Positions 6,885-64,000 of a stretch of DNA of 64,000 nt are shown piece by piece. Under the pieces are notes generated by a model. It was not told the origin of the DNA. It ran no database searches and worked only from the letters and a program-made list of their open reading frames with translations. Positions within the stretch are counted from its first letter, which is position 1. Every line of letters starts with the position of its first letter. Source of the DNA: Gudongella oleilytica (GTDB lineage: Bacteria > Bacillota > Clostridia > Tissierellales > Tissierellaceae); the NCBI RefSeq assembly GCF_004101785.1, contig NZ_CP035130.1:496001-560000 (forward strand). The letters are read 5' to 3'. A program made the translations under genes and the position numbers.

Positions 6885-7048
6885 ACATTTTGTGTCAACT
6901 ACTTAATTATAAGCTGAGTCATGGAAAAAAGCAAGTGCTTTTTACAAACGAATTTTCATTATATCAATAAAAATCCATACAATTTTTATTGACTACTCCT
7001 ACTCATTATGATAGCATATCACTCAGTGAAAATTAAATATCTTGATTA
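6885..7048. other. Intergenic segment between tRNA-Pro and SAM riboswitch
   Basis: No gene is seen. The segment is AT-rich and carries the likely promoter of the SAM riboswitch and metK: a TTGACT element near 6989 followed by AT-rich -10 candidates. Confidence 0.5.
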
Positions 7049-7145
7049 CCTTATCAAGAGAGGTGGAGGGATAGGCCCGATGAAACCCGGCAACCTGGTA
7101 ATACAGGTGCTAATTCCTGCAGAATGAAGATTCTGAAAGATGAGG
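7049..7145 (+). promoter_or_regulatory. SAM-I (S-box) riboswitch
   Basis: The conserved S-box blocks are present in order: AGAGAGGTGGAGGGA, GGCCCGATGAAACCCGGCAACC, a variable P3 hairpin, GGTGCTAATTCC and GAAAGATGAG. CTTATC (7050) pairs with GATGAG (7139) as the P1 helix. Binding of S-adenosylmethionine should favour the downstream terminator and shut off metK, the SAM synthetase that follows, giving end-product control. Confidence 0.96.
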
Positions 7146-7190
7146 TGTAGTGAAAACTTACACCGTTCCTTTTGGAAGGGTTTTTTTATT
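7144..7190 (+). terminator. SAM riboswitch expression platform
   Basis: A GGTGTA/TACACC hairpin is followed by CCGTTCC-TTTT-GGAAGGG and a run of seven T at about 7181. This is the terminator that forms when the S-box binds SAM. Confidence 0.75.
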
Positions 7191-29231: not shown

Positions 29232-29243
29232 AATGATAGATAT

Positions 29244-29350
29244 ATCTTCAGGGCGAGGTGCAAGTCCTCACCGGCGGTAAAGCCCGCGAACCGAAAGGTT
29301 GATCTGGTGTAATTCCAGGGCCGACAGTTAAAGTCTGGATGAAAGAAGAT
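29244..29350 (+). promoter_or_regulatory. FMN riboswitch (RFN element)
   Basis: The RFN blocks are in order: ATCTTCAGGGCGAGGTGCAA, TCACCGGCGGTAAAGCCCGC, GAACCGAAAGGTTGATC, TGGTGTAATTCCAGGGCCGA, CAGTTAAAGTCTGGATGAAAG. ATCTTC pairs with GAAGAT as P1. FMN binding should promote the terminator at 29371 and lower expression of the riboflavin transporter gene downstream. Confidence 0.97.
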
Positions 29351-29370
29351 GGTATAATCTGTTTTAAATG

Positions 29371-58093: not shown

Positions 58094-59098
58094 ATGTCTG
58101 CTTTTAGCTGGCTAAACTCTCAGCTCCTTAAAATGGAGTGGCTTTACGATTTGATCCAACGGCTCGTCGAGGATGTATTCGGGCTGAGTATGACAACCCG
58201 GTTCGGGAATAGTCTTCATTTTTTTATCTACGATACCATTAAGATATTCTTGCTGCTATCATTCCTTATATTTGGTATTTCATATATCCAAAGCTTCTTT
58301 CCGCCTGAAAGGACCAGAAAGATCATCGGTCGGTTTAAAGGAGTTACAGCGAATCTGTTGGCTGCGCTTCTTGGAACAATAACACCTTTTTGCGCATGCT
58401 CGTCTATACCTCTTTTTATTGGCTTTACAAGCGCAGGACTCCCTATAGGTGTTACCTTCTCATTTCTTATATCCTCACCATTGGTTGACCTGGCATCCGT
58501 GCTCCTTCTTGCCAGCATATTCAACTGGAGGATAGCAATAGCATATGTTGTCGTCGGGGTAATACTTGCAGTCATCAGCGGCACCATAATAAGCAAAGCA
58601 AAGCTTGAAAAATATGTGGAATCATATGTGTTTAATAACCCTTTGATAGACCTGGACCAGGACGAGCTAACAACCGGCCAGAGGCTCAGGTTTGCCAAGC
58701 TCCAGGTGGATGACATAATCAAAAAGGTTTGGATATATATTCTGGTGGGAGTTGGAATAGGAGCAATGATCCACAATTATATCCCCGAAAACATTATCAC
58801 TGCGGTTTTAGGACAGGACAAGTGGTATTCAGTGCCTGTAGCCACTTTTGTGGGAATACCTATGTATGCAGATATATTCGGGACTCTGCCCATAGCAGAG
58901 GCATTGGTAACTAAAGGTGTGGGAATTGGAACCGTAATGTCCTTTATGATGGCAGTAACTGCTTTATCGCTTCCTTCAATGATAATGCTTTCAAAGGTTG
59001 TCAAGCCAAAGCTTTTAGGAGTTTTCGCAGGAGTAGTATCAGTGGGTATACTTATTATAGGGTTTGCATTTAATGGCTTCAGCCATTTGTTTATATGA
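58094..59098 (+). CDS. Permease (ArsP/DUF318-like), metalloid or thiol-metal exporter
   Basis: 334 residues, about eight hydrophobic segments. The motif TPFCACSSIPLFIGFTSAG is the CxCSxxP signature of the ArsP/DUF318 permease family, some members of which export organoarsenicals; the substrate here is not shown. SSPLVDLASVLLLASIF and GIPMYADIFGTLPIAEAL follow. AGGAGGAAT precedes the ATG. It is followed at 17 nt by a small thioredoxin-like protein, a common pair. Confidence 0.9.
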   Translation: MSAFSWLNSQLLKMEWLYDLIQRLVEDVFGLSMTTRFGNSLHFFIYDTIKIFLLLSFLIFGISYIQSFFPPERTRKIIGRFKGVTANLLAALLGTITPFCACSSIPLFIGFTSAGLPIGVTFSFLISSPLVDLASVLLLASIFNWRIAIAYVVVGVILAVISGTIISKAKLEKYVESYVFNNPLIDLDQDELTTGQRLRFAKLQVDDIIKKVWIYILVGVGIGAMIHNYIPENIITAVLGQDKWYSVPVATFVGIPMYADIFGTLPIAEALVTKGVGIGTVMSFMMAVTALSLPSMIMLSKVVKPKLLGVFAGVVSVGILIIGFAFNGFSHLFI

Positions 59099-59115
59099 TA
59101 AAGGGAGGAATTAAT

Positions 59116-59355
59116 ATGGAACTTAAGATTCTTGGAACAGGTTGTAAGAAATGCGAAGAATTGACAAAGAATGCAGAAACCGCAATTAAAGAGGATGGAA
59201 TAGAGGCTACGGTCGTAAAGGAAACTGACTTCAGAAAGATCATGGGATACGGAGTTATGTCCACCCCTGCGTTAGTTATCAATGAAAAGGTAGTCTCGGC
59301 TGGAAAGGTGCTCAAAACGTCAGAAATCAAAGATTTATTAAAGAAATTTGTTTAA
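59116..59355 (+). CDS. Small thioredoxin-fold protein (GCKKC)
   Basis: 79 residues, MELKILGTGCKKCEELTKNAE with a CxxC redox pair and the cis-proline strand MSTPALVIN. This is the MTH895/TM0996-like thioredoxin family often placed next to ArsP-type permeases. I chose the ATG at 59116 after AGGGAGGAA. It may reduce the permease or its substrate; this is inference. No selenocysteine TGA in its CxxC. Confidence 0.9.
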   Translation: MELKILGTGCKKCEELTKNAETAIKEDGIEATVVKETDFRKIMGYGVMSTPALVINEKVVSAGKVLKTSEIKDLLKKFV

Positions 59356-59416
59356 TTTAAAATCAAGTTGACATATCCTTTTAATATTGCTACACTCAGT
59401 ATGTGAAGAGAATATG

Positions 59417-59485
59417 GCTCATATAGTTCCCAAAATATGGTTGGGATGTATCTAGGACGTGACCGAGAATCACATCACTATGAGC
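59417..59485 (+). promoter_or_regulatory. Guanine (purine-class) riboswitch aptamer
   Basis: P1 is GCTCATA/TATGAGC. P2 CCCAA-AATATGG-TTGGG and P3 GTGA-CCGAGAA-TCAC carry the loops that kiss in purine riboswitches. J2/3 reads ATGTATCTA and J3/1 reads ACTATGAG with C at the ligand-pairing position, which indicates guanine, not adenine. It runs directly into the PRPP aptamer. Confidence 0.93.
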
Positions 59486-59580
59486 GAAAGTGTACCTAGG
59501 GTTCCGTGGGATTTTCCCAGCAGGTCCGAGCGGTACAGGTGCTCACCGCACTACACCGGAGGGATAAAAGCCCAGGCGGG
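59485..59580 (+). promoter_or_regulatory. PRPP riboswitch (ykkC subtype 2 class) aptamer
   Basis: ykkC-class blocks are in order: GCGAAAGTGTACCTAGGGTT, GGTCCGAGCGG, ACCGGAGGGATAAAAGCCC. Position before a purine permease and purC, in tandem with a guanine aptamer, points to the PRPP-sensing subtype rather than guanidine or ppGpp. PRPP should favour the aptamer over the terminator that begins at 59569, turning the genes on. Confidence 0.9.
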
Positions 59581-59620
59581 TAGGTTTCGCTAGACCTACC
59601 CGCCTGGGCTATATTTTTTT
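59569..59620 (+). terminator. Expression-platform terminator of guanine-PRPP riboswitch 1
   Basis: AGCCCAGGCGGGTAGGT pairs with ACCTACCCGCCTGGGCT around TTCGCTAG, then a T-run. Its left arm overlaps the end of the PRPP aptamer (AAAAGCCC), so the two structures exclude each other. Confidence 0.92.
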
Positions 59621-59650: not shown

Positions 59651-60952
59651 GTGGAGAGTTTCTTTAGATTGAAGGAGCACAACACAACAGTAAAGACTGA
59701 GGTTCTTGCAGGTATCACAACGTTCATGACTATGGCATACATACTTGCAGTCAATCCGGGTATGCTATCAGCTACAGGAATGGATGCAGGCGGTGTTTTT
59801 ACCGCAACAGTAGTTTCTTCAATGATAGCAACCCTTATAATGGCTCTTTACGCCAAGTATCCATTTGCACTTGCACCAGGAATGGGCTTGAATGCGTTCT
59901 TTGCATTTACCGTAGTTCTTGGACCTATGGGCAAAAGCTGGCAGTTTGCGCTTACAGCAGTATTAATTGAAGGTATAATCTTTATTCTTTTATCATTCGT
60001 CAAGGCTCGTGAGGCAATATTCGACTCGATACCAATGAATCTCAAGCATGCAGTGTCAGTCGGCATTGGTCTTTTCATAGCAATAATCGGACTTAGCGGA
60101 GCAGGGATCGTGGTTCCAGGGAATGGCACAGTCCTTGCACTTGGGGATCTTACATCAGGTCCAGTGGCTGTTGCTCTTTTTGGTATACTGGTAACAGGTG
60201 TACTACTGGCTAAAAATGTCAGCGGAGCTATCCTAATAGGTATAATCGCTTCAACCCTTATAGGTATCCCATTAGGAGTTACAATGATCCCTGAGGGCTT
60301 CAGCATATTAAGCCTTCCTCCATCGTTGGCACCTGTGGCATTCAAGTTTGTGGGTATGGAAGAGATACTATCCATGGAAATGCTTGTAGTAGTATTTACC
60401 TTCCTGTTTGTAGACATATTCGATACAGTTGGTACACTTGCAGGTGTATCTTCTAAAGCGGGCTTCCTTGATAAGGACGGAAAGCTTCCCAGGGTAGGCA
60501 AGGCTTTGATGGCTGATGCTGTTGGAACGGTTGCAGGAGCGTGTCTGGGTACAAGCACTGTTACAACATACGTGGAAAGCGCCGCAGGAGTAGCTGGAGG
60601 CGGAAGAACAGGTCTGACTTCTCTTGCGACTGCAGGGATGTTTGCACTGGCATTGTTCTTCGCACCGCTGTTTACCATGATACCTGCAGCGGCAACAGGA
60701 CCCGCTCTTGTAATAGTAGGCTTATTTATGATGAGCCCGATCAAGAAGATCGACTTTGAGGATTTCACCGAAGCCATACCGGCATTCCTCACAATCGTAA
60801 TGATGCCATTTGCATACAGTATCGCTGATGGTATCGTATTTGGTATGGTATCCTATGTAATACTTAAAGCCCTGACAGGAAGAACCAAAGAGATATCAAA
60901 GGTCATGTGGCTTCTTGCAGTATTGTTCGTTTTGAAATTCGTTTTGATGTAG
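59651..60952 (+). CDS. NCS2-family guanine/hypoxanthine permease (PbuG/AzgA-like)
   Basis: Imports purine bases. 433 residues, about 12 membrane segments, starting VESFFRLKEHNTTVKTEVLAGITTFMTMAYIL and with ALAPGMGLNAFFAF and DIFDTVGTLAGVS motifs of this family. The GTG start at 59651 follows GGAGGAGGATC. Control by guanine and PRPP supports a purine substrate. It is followed by purC after 12 nt. Confidence 0.95.
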   Translation: MESFFRLKEHNTTVKTEVLAGITTFMTMAYILAVNPGMLSATGMDAGGVFTATVVSSMIATLIMALYAKYPFALAPGMGLNAFFAFTVVLGPMGKSWQFALTAVLIEGIIFILLSFVKAREAIFDSIPMNLKHAVSVGIGLFIAIIGLSGAGIVVPGNGTVLALGDLTSGPVAVALFGILVTGVLLAKNVSGAILIGIIASTLIGIPLGVTMIPEGFSILSLPPSLAPVAFKFVGMEEILSMEMLVVVFTFLFVDIFDTVGTLAGVSSKAGFLDKDGKLPRVGKALMADAVGTVAGACLGTSTVTTYVESAAGVAGGGRTGLTSLATAGMFALALFFAPLFTMIPAAATGPALVIVGLFMMSPIKKIDFEDFTEAIPAFLTIVMMPFAYSIADGIVFGMVSYVILKALTGRTKEISKVMWLLAVLFVLKFVLM

Positions 60953-60964
60953 GGGGAGAAAAAC

Positions 60965-61651
60965 ATGGAATTAGTCTACACCGGCAAAACAAAAAATGTC
61001 TATAAGCTTGAAGACGGGAATTATCTTCTCAAGTTCAAGGACGACGTTACTGGAGAGAATGGGGTGTTTGACCCAGGTGCCAACACAGTTGGACTTAGCA
61101 TTGAAGGAGCTGGAAAGGCCGGATTGAGACTGACAACATTCTTCTTTGAGAAAATAAACGAGAAGGGTATACCGACACACTTTGTATCGGCTGATATAGA
61201 TAACAACACAATGACCGTGCTGCCTGCAACTCTGTTCGGGCAGGGTGTCGAGGTTATCTGCAGATACAGGGCGGTAGGAAGCTTCCTAAAAAGATACGGA
61301 AGGTACGTGACTGAAGGTCAGGAGCTTGACGCATATGTGGAGGTAACCCTTAAGGACGACGACAGAAATGATCCTCTGATAACAGATGACGGTCTGGCGA
61401 TGCTTGGTATAATGACCTTGGAGGAGTATAAAACTCTAACCGAATTGACTAAGAAGATTGGCGCAGTTGTAAAGGAAGAACTGGCTAAGAAGGGTCTTGA
61501 GCTCTACGATATCAAGTTTGAGTTCGGGAGAGTTGGGGAGGATAAACACATCGCTCTGATCGATGAGATTTCCGGAGGGAACATGAGGGCTTTCAAGGGT
61601 CCAGAGTACATCGAGCCGCTTAAGCTGGAACAATTGATGCTCAACGAATAA
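60965..61651 (+). CDS. purC: SAICAR synthetase
   Basis: Joins aspartate to CAIR in de novo purine synthesis. 228 residues, MELVYTGKTKNVYKLEDGNYLLKF, ATP region VICRYRAVGSFLKRYG, and the substrate motif GLELYDIKFEFGRVGE...LIDEISGGNMRAF. Follows the permease by 12 nt after GGGGGAG. The stop is only 6 nt before the second guanine-PRPP riboswitch. Confidence 0.98.
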   Translation: MELVYTGKTKNVYKLEDGNYLLKFKDDVTGENGVFDPGANTVGLSIEGAGKAGLRLTTFFFEKINEKGIPTHFVSADIDNNTMTVLPATLFGQGVEVICRYRAVGSFLKRYGRYVTEGQELDAYVEVTLKDDDRNDPLITDDGLAMLGIMTLEEYKTLTELTKKIGAVVKEELAKKGLELYDIKFEFGRVGEDKHIALIDEISGGNMRAFKGPEYIEPLKLEQLMLNE

Positions 61652-61657
61652 AAAAAT

Positions 61658-61726
61658 GCTCATATAAGTCTCTTAATAGGGGGGAGACGTCTCTACTAAA
61701 TGACCGTAAATCATTTGTCTATGAGC
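61658..61726 (+). promoter_or_regulatory. Second guanine riboswitch aptamer
   Basis: P1 GCTCATA/TATGAGC is again perfect. P2 is CTCTT/GGGAG with loop AATAGGG; P3 is AAATGA-CCGTAAA-TCATTT, where L3 matches the classic CCGTAAA. J3/1 reads GTCTATGAG: C is at the ligand position (guanine), although the base before it is T, not the usual A. It lies 6 nt after purC, with no separate promoter seen. Confidence 0.9.
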
Positions 61727-61825
61727 GAAAGTGTGTCTAGGGTTCCGGGAGGGTTTCTCCGCTGGCCCAAGCGACACAGATACAACGAGTTGTATTACAC
61801 CGAAGGGAGAAAAGCCCAGGCGGGT
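61726..61825 (+). promoter_or_regulatory. Second PRPP riboswitch aptamer
   Basis: GCGAAAGTGTGTCTAGGGTT, GGCCCAAGCGA and ACCGAAGGGAGAAAAGCCC are diverged copies of the first aptamer's blocks. Expected to turn purL on when PRPP is high. Confidence 0.88.
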
Positions 61826-61862
61826 AGGTTTCGCTTTTAAACCTACCCGCCTGGGCTTTTCA
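61812..61862 (+). terminator. Expression-platform terminator of guanine-PRPP riboswitch 2
   Basis: AAGCCCAGGCGGGTAGGTTT pairs with AAACCTACCCGCCTGGGCTT around a short T-rich loop, followed by TTTCATTTT. The arm sequence is the same as in riboswitch 1. Confidence 0.92.
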
Positions 61863-61879: not shown

Positions 61880-64000
61880 ATGGAACATCAAAGAATCATA
61901 ATCGAGAAAAAACCTCAACACAATATCGAAGGCAAAAAGCTACTTAAGGATGCTGTGGACTATCTGGGGCTAAAGGGCATAGAAAGACTTTCGGTCGCAA
62001 CAATCTATGATCTGGTGTATGCAACTCGTGAGCAAGCAAAGGATATAACGGACAAGCTTCTGTTCGACCCTGCAATGGACATGAATCCTGTATCAAAGGT
62101 TGAGCTGGAGGATGGAGAGCTTGCCTTCAGAGTTGAATACCATAAGGGCCAGTATGATCAGAGACAACATTCAACAGAGGCGATCATAAGGAATTACCTG
62201 GGCTTCGATGAAATCAGAGTCAAGACCTCAAGACTTGTAAAGGCTAAAGGACTGGATGAAGAAGGTATTAAAAAGCTCAAGTCGTACTTTATTAATCCCA
62301 TCGAGGCAAAGGAGGTCCCCCTGGATAAATTCCTATGGCAGGAGGAAAAGGAGAATGAGTCGGCTATCCCTGTTGTTGAGGGATTCATAGCATCCGATGA
62401 GGAACAGCTTAAAAAGCTGAAGAGGGAGATCGGCTTTGCGATGGATATTGATGACCTCGCCCATTGCAGAGACTACTTCAGGAGCAAGGACAGAAACCCG
62501 ACAATAGCAGAGCTGAAGATGCTTGACACCTACTGGTCCGATCACTGCAGGCACACTACCTTCATGACTGAGCTTACTGAGGTAAAGGTCGATGCAGGCA
62601 AATACCAGGGGCTCTTTCAAAGTGCATTGGACAGCTATATGGAGTCCAGACAGTTCGCCCATGGAAACAGCAAGGTGATTTCTCTTATGGACCTTGCAAC
62701 TATAAACATGAGAGAGATAACAAAGAAGGGACTTCTCGATGACAAGGAAGTATCGGATGAGATAAATGCGGCAAGCATAGAAATCGATGTCGATGTAGAT
62801 GGGAAAACTGAAAGATGGCTGTTGATGTTTAAAAATGAGACACACAACCATCCAACTGAGATCGAGCCATTTGGCGGCGCATCCACATGCCTTGGAGGAG
62901 GTATCCGTGACCCGCTTTCAGGCAGGAGCTACGTCTACCAGGCTATGAGGATAACCGGTGCGGCAGATCCGAGAAGAGCCTTTGAGGAGACGAGAAAAGG
63001 CAAGCTCCCGCAGAGGAAGATAACAAGGACGGCGATGGACGGCTACAGCTCCTATGGATATCAGATCGGTGGGACATCAGGCTATATCCACGAGGTCTAC
63101 GATGACGGCTTCATGGCAAAAAGAATGGAGCTTGGCGCTTTGGTTTCTGCAGTTCCTAAGGATTGGGTGCAAAGAGGGAAGCCGGAGCCTACGGATCTGG
63201 TGCTTCTTATAGGAGGAGAAACAGGCAGAGACGGTCTTGGAGCAGCGGTAGGGTCATCTGTGGAGCAAAAAAGCGATGCATTGGTAACGGCAGGGGCAGA
63301 GGTACAGAAAGGGAATCCACCTCTGGAGAGAAAAATAGTAAGGCTTTTCAGAAATCCCAAGGCGACAAGGCTGATAAAGAAATGCAACGACTTTGGCGCT
63401 GGCGGAGTGGCAGTGGCAGTCGGTGAGCTTGCAGACGGTTTATACATTGACCTGGATAAGGTTCCGGTCAAATACCCAGGTATGGATGGAGGAGAGATTG
63501 CGCTTTCAGAATCTCAGGAGAGAATGGCCTTAGTAATAGCTGAAAAAGACCTGGAGGTCTTCAGGGGTCTCTGCTTGGACGAGGATCTTGATGTAGCAGT
63601 GATCGCCAAGGTAACTGATGAGAATAGAGTCCAGATGGTGTGGAAGGGCAGCACCATAATCGACATAGACAGAGAGTTCATTGAAACCAGCGGGATAAGA
63701 AAGAAGAGCAGAGTTCACGTTGCCGGGCCAGAGGGATCGGCATACCTTACAAGGCTCCCGGAGTGGATAAAGGGAGAAAATACGAAGGAGGATTTCCTCG
63801 CAAATATATCTCAGCTCAATACCTGCTCACAAAAGGGACTGGTTGAGAGATTTGACAATACGATTGGGTCAGGAAGTGTATTCTTACAGCTTGGAGGCAA
63901 GCACCAGCTTACACCTCAGGAGGGTATGGCGGCAAAGCTGCCAGTACTGAATGGAAACACTAAGACATGCTCCTTAATGACCTATGGGTACGATCCTGAA
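61880..64000 (+). CDS. purL: Phosphoribosylformylglycinamidine synthase (3' end beyond window)
   Basis: Converts FGAR to FGAM using glutamine and ATP. The frame is open from ATG 61880 (after AAAGGAGGAT) to the window end, 707 codons. It contains MLDTYWSDHCRHTTF, FKNETHNHPTEIEPFGGASTCLGGGIRDPL, RITGAADPRR, GGETGRDGLGAA and NDFGAGGVAVAVGELADG. Residue 1 is unlike the small PurQ/PurS-dependent type; the length suggests the large single-chain form of Clostridia and Proteobacteria. The last part and any glutaminase domain lie outside the window. Confidence 0.97.
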   Translation, partial: MEHQRIIIEKKPQHNIEGKKLLKDAVDYLGLKGIERLSVATIYDLVYATREQAKDITDKLLFDPAMDMNPVSKVELEDGELAFRVEYHKGQYDQRQHSTEAIIRNYLGFDEIRVKTSRLVKAKGLDEEGIKKLKSYFINPIEAKEVPLDKFLWQEEKENESAIPVVEGFIASDEEQLKKLKREIGFAMDIDDLAHCRDYFRSKDRNPTIAELKMLDTYWSDHCRHTTFMTELTEVKVDAGKYQGLFQSALDSYMESRQFAHGNSKVISLMDLATINMREITKKGLLDDKEVSDEINAASIEIDVDVDGKTERWLLMFKNETHNHPTEIEPFGGASTCLGGGIRDPLSGRSYVYQAMRITGAADPRRAFEETRKGKLPQRKITRTAMDGYSSYGYQIGGTSGYIHEVYDDGFMAKRMELGALVSAVPKDWVQRGKPEPTDLVLLIGGETGRDGLGAAVGSSVEQKSDALVTAGAEVQKGNPPLERKIVRLFRNPKATRLIKKCNDFGAGGVAVAVGELADGLYIDLDKVPVKYPGMDGGEIALSESQERMALVIAEKDLEVFRGLCLDEDLDVAVIAKVTDENRVQMVWKGSTIIDIDREFIETSGIRKKSRVHVAGPEGSAYLTRLPEWIKGENTKEDFLANISQLNTCSQKGLVERFDNTIGSGSVFLQLGGKHQLTPQEGMAAKLPVLNGNTKTCSLMTYGYDPE

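Follow-up and report, generated by a model that had tools for sequence, protein, structure and literature searches.

The window, by which we mean the whole stretch of 64,000 nucleotides of Gudongella oleilytica DNA that was analysed, ends within a purine operon whose features all lie on the forward strand. A first regulatory RNA (gate 1) is followed by a predicted purine permease of the NCS2 type (59651–60952; 433 aa, GTG start; PF00860, 163.6 bits), for which a search of NCBIfam gave no match, by purC (60965–61651; PF01259, 131.6 bits), by a second regulatory RNA of the same kind (gate 2) and by purL, which starts at 61880 and continues beyond the window end at 64000 (TIGR01857, 918 bits on the partial frame). 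With the open reading frames of locus L205 beyond purL, the order becomes gate 1–permease–purC–gate 2–purLEFMNHD, where the genes after purL are presumably purE, purF, purM, purN, purH and purD, names that we assigned on inspection of the sequences and not by a family search. Upstream of gate 1, a promoter-like site (59368–59396; TTGACA-17-TACACT, with TG ahead of the second hexamer), identified as a consensus match only (10 of 12 positions), ends 21 bases before the first aptamer. An ArsP-like permease and a small thioredoxin-fold protein (58094–59355), just 5′ of the purine operon, form a separate unit by content, and elsewhere the window contains an FMN riboswitch (29240–29354, 115.5 bits) and a SAM riboswitch (7048–7146, 89.7 bits).

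The guanine aptamer of gate 1 (59417–59485) is closed by a P1 stem reading exactly GCTCATA (59417–59423) and TATGAGC (59479–59485), the stem named in the original prediction, and lies within an Rfam Purine match with the three-helix purine fold (59399–59500; 64.2 bits, E 2e-10, gathering score 37). The ligand-pairing position, C59478 by the xpt aptamer numbering (C74), is of the guanine type and not the U of adenine aptamers; a G stands in place of the consensus C just 5′ of P3, and the score is below that of gate 2. GAAAG, the start of the PRPP (ykkC 2b) aptamer (GAAAG...GUUUC, 59486–59588), abuts the guanine P1 with zero spacer, and the two P1 stems are thus 5 nt apart, at the lower end of the 5–7 nt used to define tandems. 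In this second aptamer, with P1 at 59491–59496/59532–59537 and P3 at 59561–59563/59571–59573, every modelled pair is standard. Its tails are complementary in the manner of a PRPP riboswitch, GAAA/UUUC being prolonged by AGC/GCU into an extended P0 (AGCGAAA 59483–59489/UUUCGCU 59585–59591) that is present in the minimum free energy fold of the terminator-less RNA and is backed by covariation in relatives; AGC at 59483–59485 belongs to both this P0 and the end of the guanine P1. The terminator call and the fold agree on one intrinsic terminator with its U tract (59569–59620), consisting of the hairpin AGCCCAGGCGGGTAGG...CCTACCCGCCTGGGCT (59569–59610) and then ATATTTTTTT. Its 5′ arm overlaps P3 and conserved nucleotides of the PRPP aptamer, and its loop contains most of the P0 3′ strand; between the two aptamers of gate 1, no terminator was found. 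The spacer-free junction and the single shared terminator are therefore as the original prediction had described them. Two instances of the pattern GAAAGTGN..CTAGGGNTC are present in the window, and 100 dinucleotide shuffles yielded none.

The covariance search proposed at the outset confirmed the first aptamer and, for the second, returned Guanidine-I as the closest model: RF00442 matched 59485–59580 with 61.7 bits (E 5e-10), just below its gathering score of 63, and no PRPP-switch family came up in the Rfam search of this segment and its relatives. That nearest model is what speaks for another ykkC ligand (ppGpp, guanidine or a nucleoside diphosphate), a reading that we consider very improbable. 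According to PMC6031431, subtype 2 is told from guanidine-I by a pyrimidine where the latter has A46, and PRPP from ppGpp switches by G96, which ppGpp switches do not conserve. By alignment to the consensus, in our own mapping of the published numbering, the A46 equivalent in gate 1 is the pyrimidine C59531 and the G96 equivalent is G59575. The subthreshold score and the C instead of A46 led us to reject a guanidine-I identity of the match, and the tails able to form P0, the purine-synthesis genes downstream and the adjoining guanine aptamer on the 5′ side, an order known from published PRPP tandems, likewise argue against another ligand. Among the matches listed, the A46 equivalent is C or T in 149 of 152 relatives (G in one, two not parsed), and the C74 equivalent is C in 79 of 81 tandems; G96 is G in all relatives, a largely circular count that proves nothing beyond the window copies because the fetching pattern fixed G96 for most loci. 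By fold, residues and tails, the second aptamer is of the PRPP type, as originally predicted, with PRPP as its predicted ligand. Two relatives, L126 (69.2 bits) and L073 (68.4 bits), exceed the guanidine-I cut-off, and PRPP relatives such as these would be mislabelled as guanidine riboswitches via that cut-off. A further set (L191, L193, L195–L198 and L200) is PRPP-like, scores 52–67 bits and has a long outer P0 (GAA...TTC), with GGCGGCAGG replacing GGCGGGUAGG.

The original prediction described a single element at this locus; it is in fact one of two copies. A second complete tandem device lies between purC and purL (61658–61858), comprising a guanine aptamer (61658–61726; P1 61658–61664/61720–61726; Purine 76.5 bits, cut-off 37), a PRPP aptamer (61727–61832; RF00442 58.8 bits, E 6e-10, cut-off 63), an extended P0 recognised by complementarity (AGCGAAA/UUUCGCU, 61724–61730/61829–61835) and an intrinsic terminator (61812–61858). 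With our own model R1, the PRPP aptamers of gates 1 and 2 score 107.3 and 109.3 bits, both sequences having been in the training set of that model. Over the whole genome (2.36 Mb), there are two purine and two ykkC matches, all at the two gates. We dropped a reading of the near-identical terminator arms as a sign of recent duplication: conserved PRPP-aptamer sequence makes up the 5′ arm, and the 3′ arm is constrained to be complementary to it. Gate 2 might alternatively have its own promoter within purC, making the gates parallel instead of serial, and a site there (ATGACG-16-TATAAT, 61386–61413, 10 of 12 positions) could make gate 2 partly independent. Yet the scan gave 11 promoter-like sites against 4.7 in shuffled sequence, so that a single match carries little weight, and the 6 bases separating the end of purC from gate 2 are too few to accommodate a promoter; we regard parallel gates as rather doubtful and keep to two gates in series.

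The arrangement recurs in the genus, with gate 1–permease–purC–gate 2 followed by purE in three more genomes (L214, L215 and L142). At family level, matches are present in 27 of the 28 genomes; 11 of the 28 contain two strong ones, separated by 0.9–2.3 kb, as counted from the table of matches. In these 11 genomes, which are related and not independent, the guanine aptamer judged by eye is intact in all 11 first gates and in five of the second ones, one of the five carrying U74; the other six second gates have lost theirs. The placing of an importer under the gate, a point stressed in the original prediction, holds insofar as the permease is the first gene, but it is not special to this locus: among the matches listed, the same permease comes first in 33 of the 151 PRPP matches with a readable gene (154 unique matches), made up in part of 20 of 82 tandems and 11 of 54 PRPP singlets. 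This tally ruled out the importer association as an unusual feature. Our counts rest on direct matches for permease, purC and purL only, as single-linkage clustering of the genes fused purE with purL (53 of 88 without a direct purL match). Salvage by phosphoribosyltransferases uses up PRPP, as does de novo synthesis, and a PRPP gate on an importer is therefore physiologically sensible. The word "permease" is absent from the main text of PMC5912903, and a literature search covering titles and the starts of abstracts gave no report of a tandem–permease association.

We think it quite probable that the operon carries a tandem guanine–PRPP riboswitch working as an IMPLY gate twice over, with crosstalk between the aptamers by strand sharing. 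Such a gate would be off only with guanine present and PRPP absent. Guanine would stabilise P1 of the first aptamer, and PRPP would stabilise P0 and P3 of the second, concealing the terminator's 5′ arm. The final AGC of the guanine P1 would double as the outer part of P0 (AGCGAAA/UUUCGCU), such that a complete P1 would leave a short P0 and a weakened PRPP aptamer and favour the terminator, and a complete P0 would leave a frayed P1 and allow read-through. The permease and purC would be under gate 1, with gate 2, further into the operon, acting as a second check ahead of purL–purD. The sequences show the anatomy, conservation and covariation, whereas binding of the two ligands, switching and action in series are what we infer; on this account, the gates should weigh the finished purine (guanine) against the raw material (PRPP).

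The comparative sample includes at least 119 loci collected with a pattern fixing UUUC and the G96 position, and conservation of G96 and of the inner UUUC is consequently built into these loci. Model R1 spans GAAAG...GUUUC only, and the flanks on which the following comparisons are made are therefore outside its fit. The split into tandems and singlets is partly hand-made, the script's classes having been revised by eye (L076 and L101 out of the tandems; L153, L031 and L055 into them), and eight short or odd-core and eight degenerate matches were left out of both tests, the degenerate ones being scored apart. Among the matches listed, 72 of 80 tandems have a P1 3′ strand of exactly 7 nt that directly abuts GAAAG. 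At positions 1, 2 and 3 upstream of GAAAG, in the 65 dereplicated tandems among the matches listed, the nucleotides pair with their P1 partners in 57, 61 and 63 cases, with their P0 partners in 49, 62 and 62, and with both in 47, 60 and 61. Pairing in P0 averages 3.45 of 4 per sequence versus 3.14 after shuffling (sd 0.047), and none of 5000 shuffles, which retain the relatedness of the sequences, reached as high; sliding the P0 partners by −1, +1 and +2 gives 1.26, 2.12 and 1.72, the first over three positions only. In an earlier cut of the data, position 1 was paired in 46 of 56 unique flank pairs versus 32.9 expected. The triplets G-C-G, A-U-A, G-U-A and A-U-G (P1 5′, shared and P0 3′ nucleotide) show that both sides change. 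Seven tandems fetched later obey the same rule by eye, with one mismatch in L213 (L209 was not parsed).

The covariation is mostly at position 1, the outer P0 positions 2 and 3 being near-invariant and the inner P0 (GAAA/UUUC) hardly variable; in 16 of the 65 tandems, position 1 has no P0 pair, so that some share only two useful nucleotides. With the PRPP P1 and P3 imposed, the P1 and P0 states have predicted energies of −54.2 and −54.9 kcal/mol in gate 1 and of −53.5 and −51.7 kcal/mol in gate 2, within about 2 kcal/mol of each other in both, in a model without ligands or tertiary contacts. The same aptamers could also communicate sterically, the folded domains 5 nt apart being mutually exclusive and the outer P0 pairs incidental. 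PMC5912903 names a steric clash as an alternative, and the zero spacing fixed in 72 of the 80 listed tandems would also be expected under steric exclusion. However, the complementarity of the outer P0 tracks changes in the guanine P1, as in the triplets above, beyond every shuffle, and one relative (L012) has kept both P0 halves without a PRPP aptamer between them. We hold the steric account to be unlikely, and the comparative data support strand sharing as the route of guanine/PRPP crosstalk.

Natural variants bear on which parts of the device are kept. L012, before purL in genome G070, retains its guanine aptamer intact (62.4 bits) as well as both P0 halves, from between which the PRPP aptamer has been lost; in its sister L021, before purC, the guanine core is eroded and P1 kept. 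One operon (G070, contig C89) thus holds two decayed gates. In Peptoniphilus, Anaerococcus and relatives, a short stem-loop, GCUCA-loop-UGAGC or UGGGC, replaces the guanine aptamer (L048, L101, L036, L070, L078, L014, L186, L187 and L188, some with mismatches), and the four of these loci that were searched with Rfam (L048, L101, L036 and L186) gave no purine aptamer, nor did the singlet or degenerate loci L080, L043, L052, L123, L077, L174 and L073. We had considered an opposing hairpin in all PRPP singlets, a claim now weakened to a tendency: among the 51 dereplicated singlets in the matches listed, pairing at −1 to −6 reaches a mean probability of 0.5 or more in 27, versus 28% of shuffles, and several singlets, L092 and L149 among them, are clearly without. 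In a Tissierella sp. metagenome-assembled genome (NZ_JARIEF010000048.1), the gate before purL (L065:2756–2945) has a purine aptamer of 67.3 bits with U at the C74 position; in its sister gate, which precedes purC, this residue is C. This is possibly an adenine–PRPP gate, a candidate known from one such genome, the record of which appears identical to our G308.

Stub hairpins in the PRPP-only relatives, together with the natural deletions, give a hint of which part of the device evolution has kept. A tentative generalisation, for which we would claim somewhat less than even chances, is that the unit of control is a strand contest between the PRPP P0 and an upstream helix, whose tenant may be a guanine aptamer, a ligand-free P1 stub to which it shrinks once guanine sensing is lost and which still opposes P0 and sets the PRPP threshold, or, in one case, a U74 aptamer, and that in operons like the present one two such contests stand in series, the second tending to lose its guanine sensor first.

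By sequence and structure, the locus is a genuine guanine–PRPP tandem riboswitch, of a kind that, as the original prediction stated, is already known: 127 and later 192 have been reported. What we add is the comparative support for crosstalk, the doubly gated operon and the PRPP-only relatives with a ligand-free hairpin at the site of the guanine P1. PMC5912903 (2018) and PMC9481103 (2022) describe communication between the guanine and PRPP aptamers as not established, and the former reports that conserved nucleotides on the 5′ side of the PRPP aptamer respond in opposite ways to guanine and PRPP. The Bacillus megaterium codA tandem described there (Sherlock et al. 2018, PMC5912903) also has its guanine aptamer directly 5′ of the PRPP aptamer and one common terminator overlapping the latter, but it precedes codA, whereas the tandems here precede a permease and the IMP pathway and occur twice in one operon. 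In the Thermoanaerobacter mathranii tandem (Knappenberger et al. 2018, PMC6031431), P0 is likewise formed from the PRPP tails, and its exclusion of the guanine P1 was proposed from folding predictions on one sequence; here, the comparison extends over the 65 dereplicated tandems among the matches listed and makes the proposal specific enough to name the compensatory mutants concerned. The singlet PRPP riboswitches of Facklamia ignava purC and Heliobacterium modesticaldum purB (PMC5912903) share the overlap of P3 with the terminator and, as described there, are without a guanine aptamer, whereas many of the singlet relatives seen here have a hairpin in its place.
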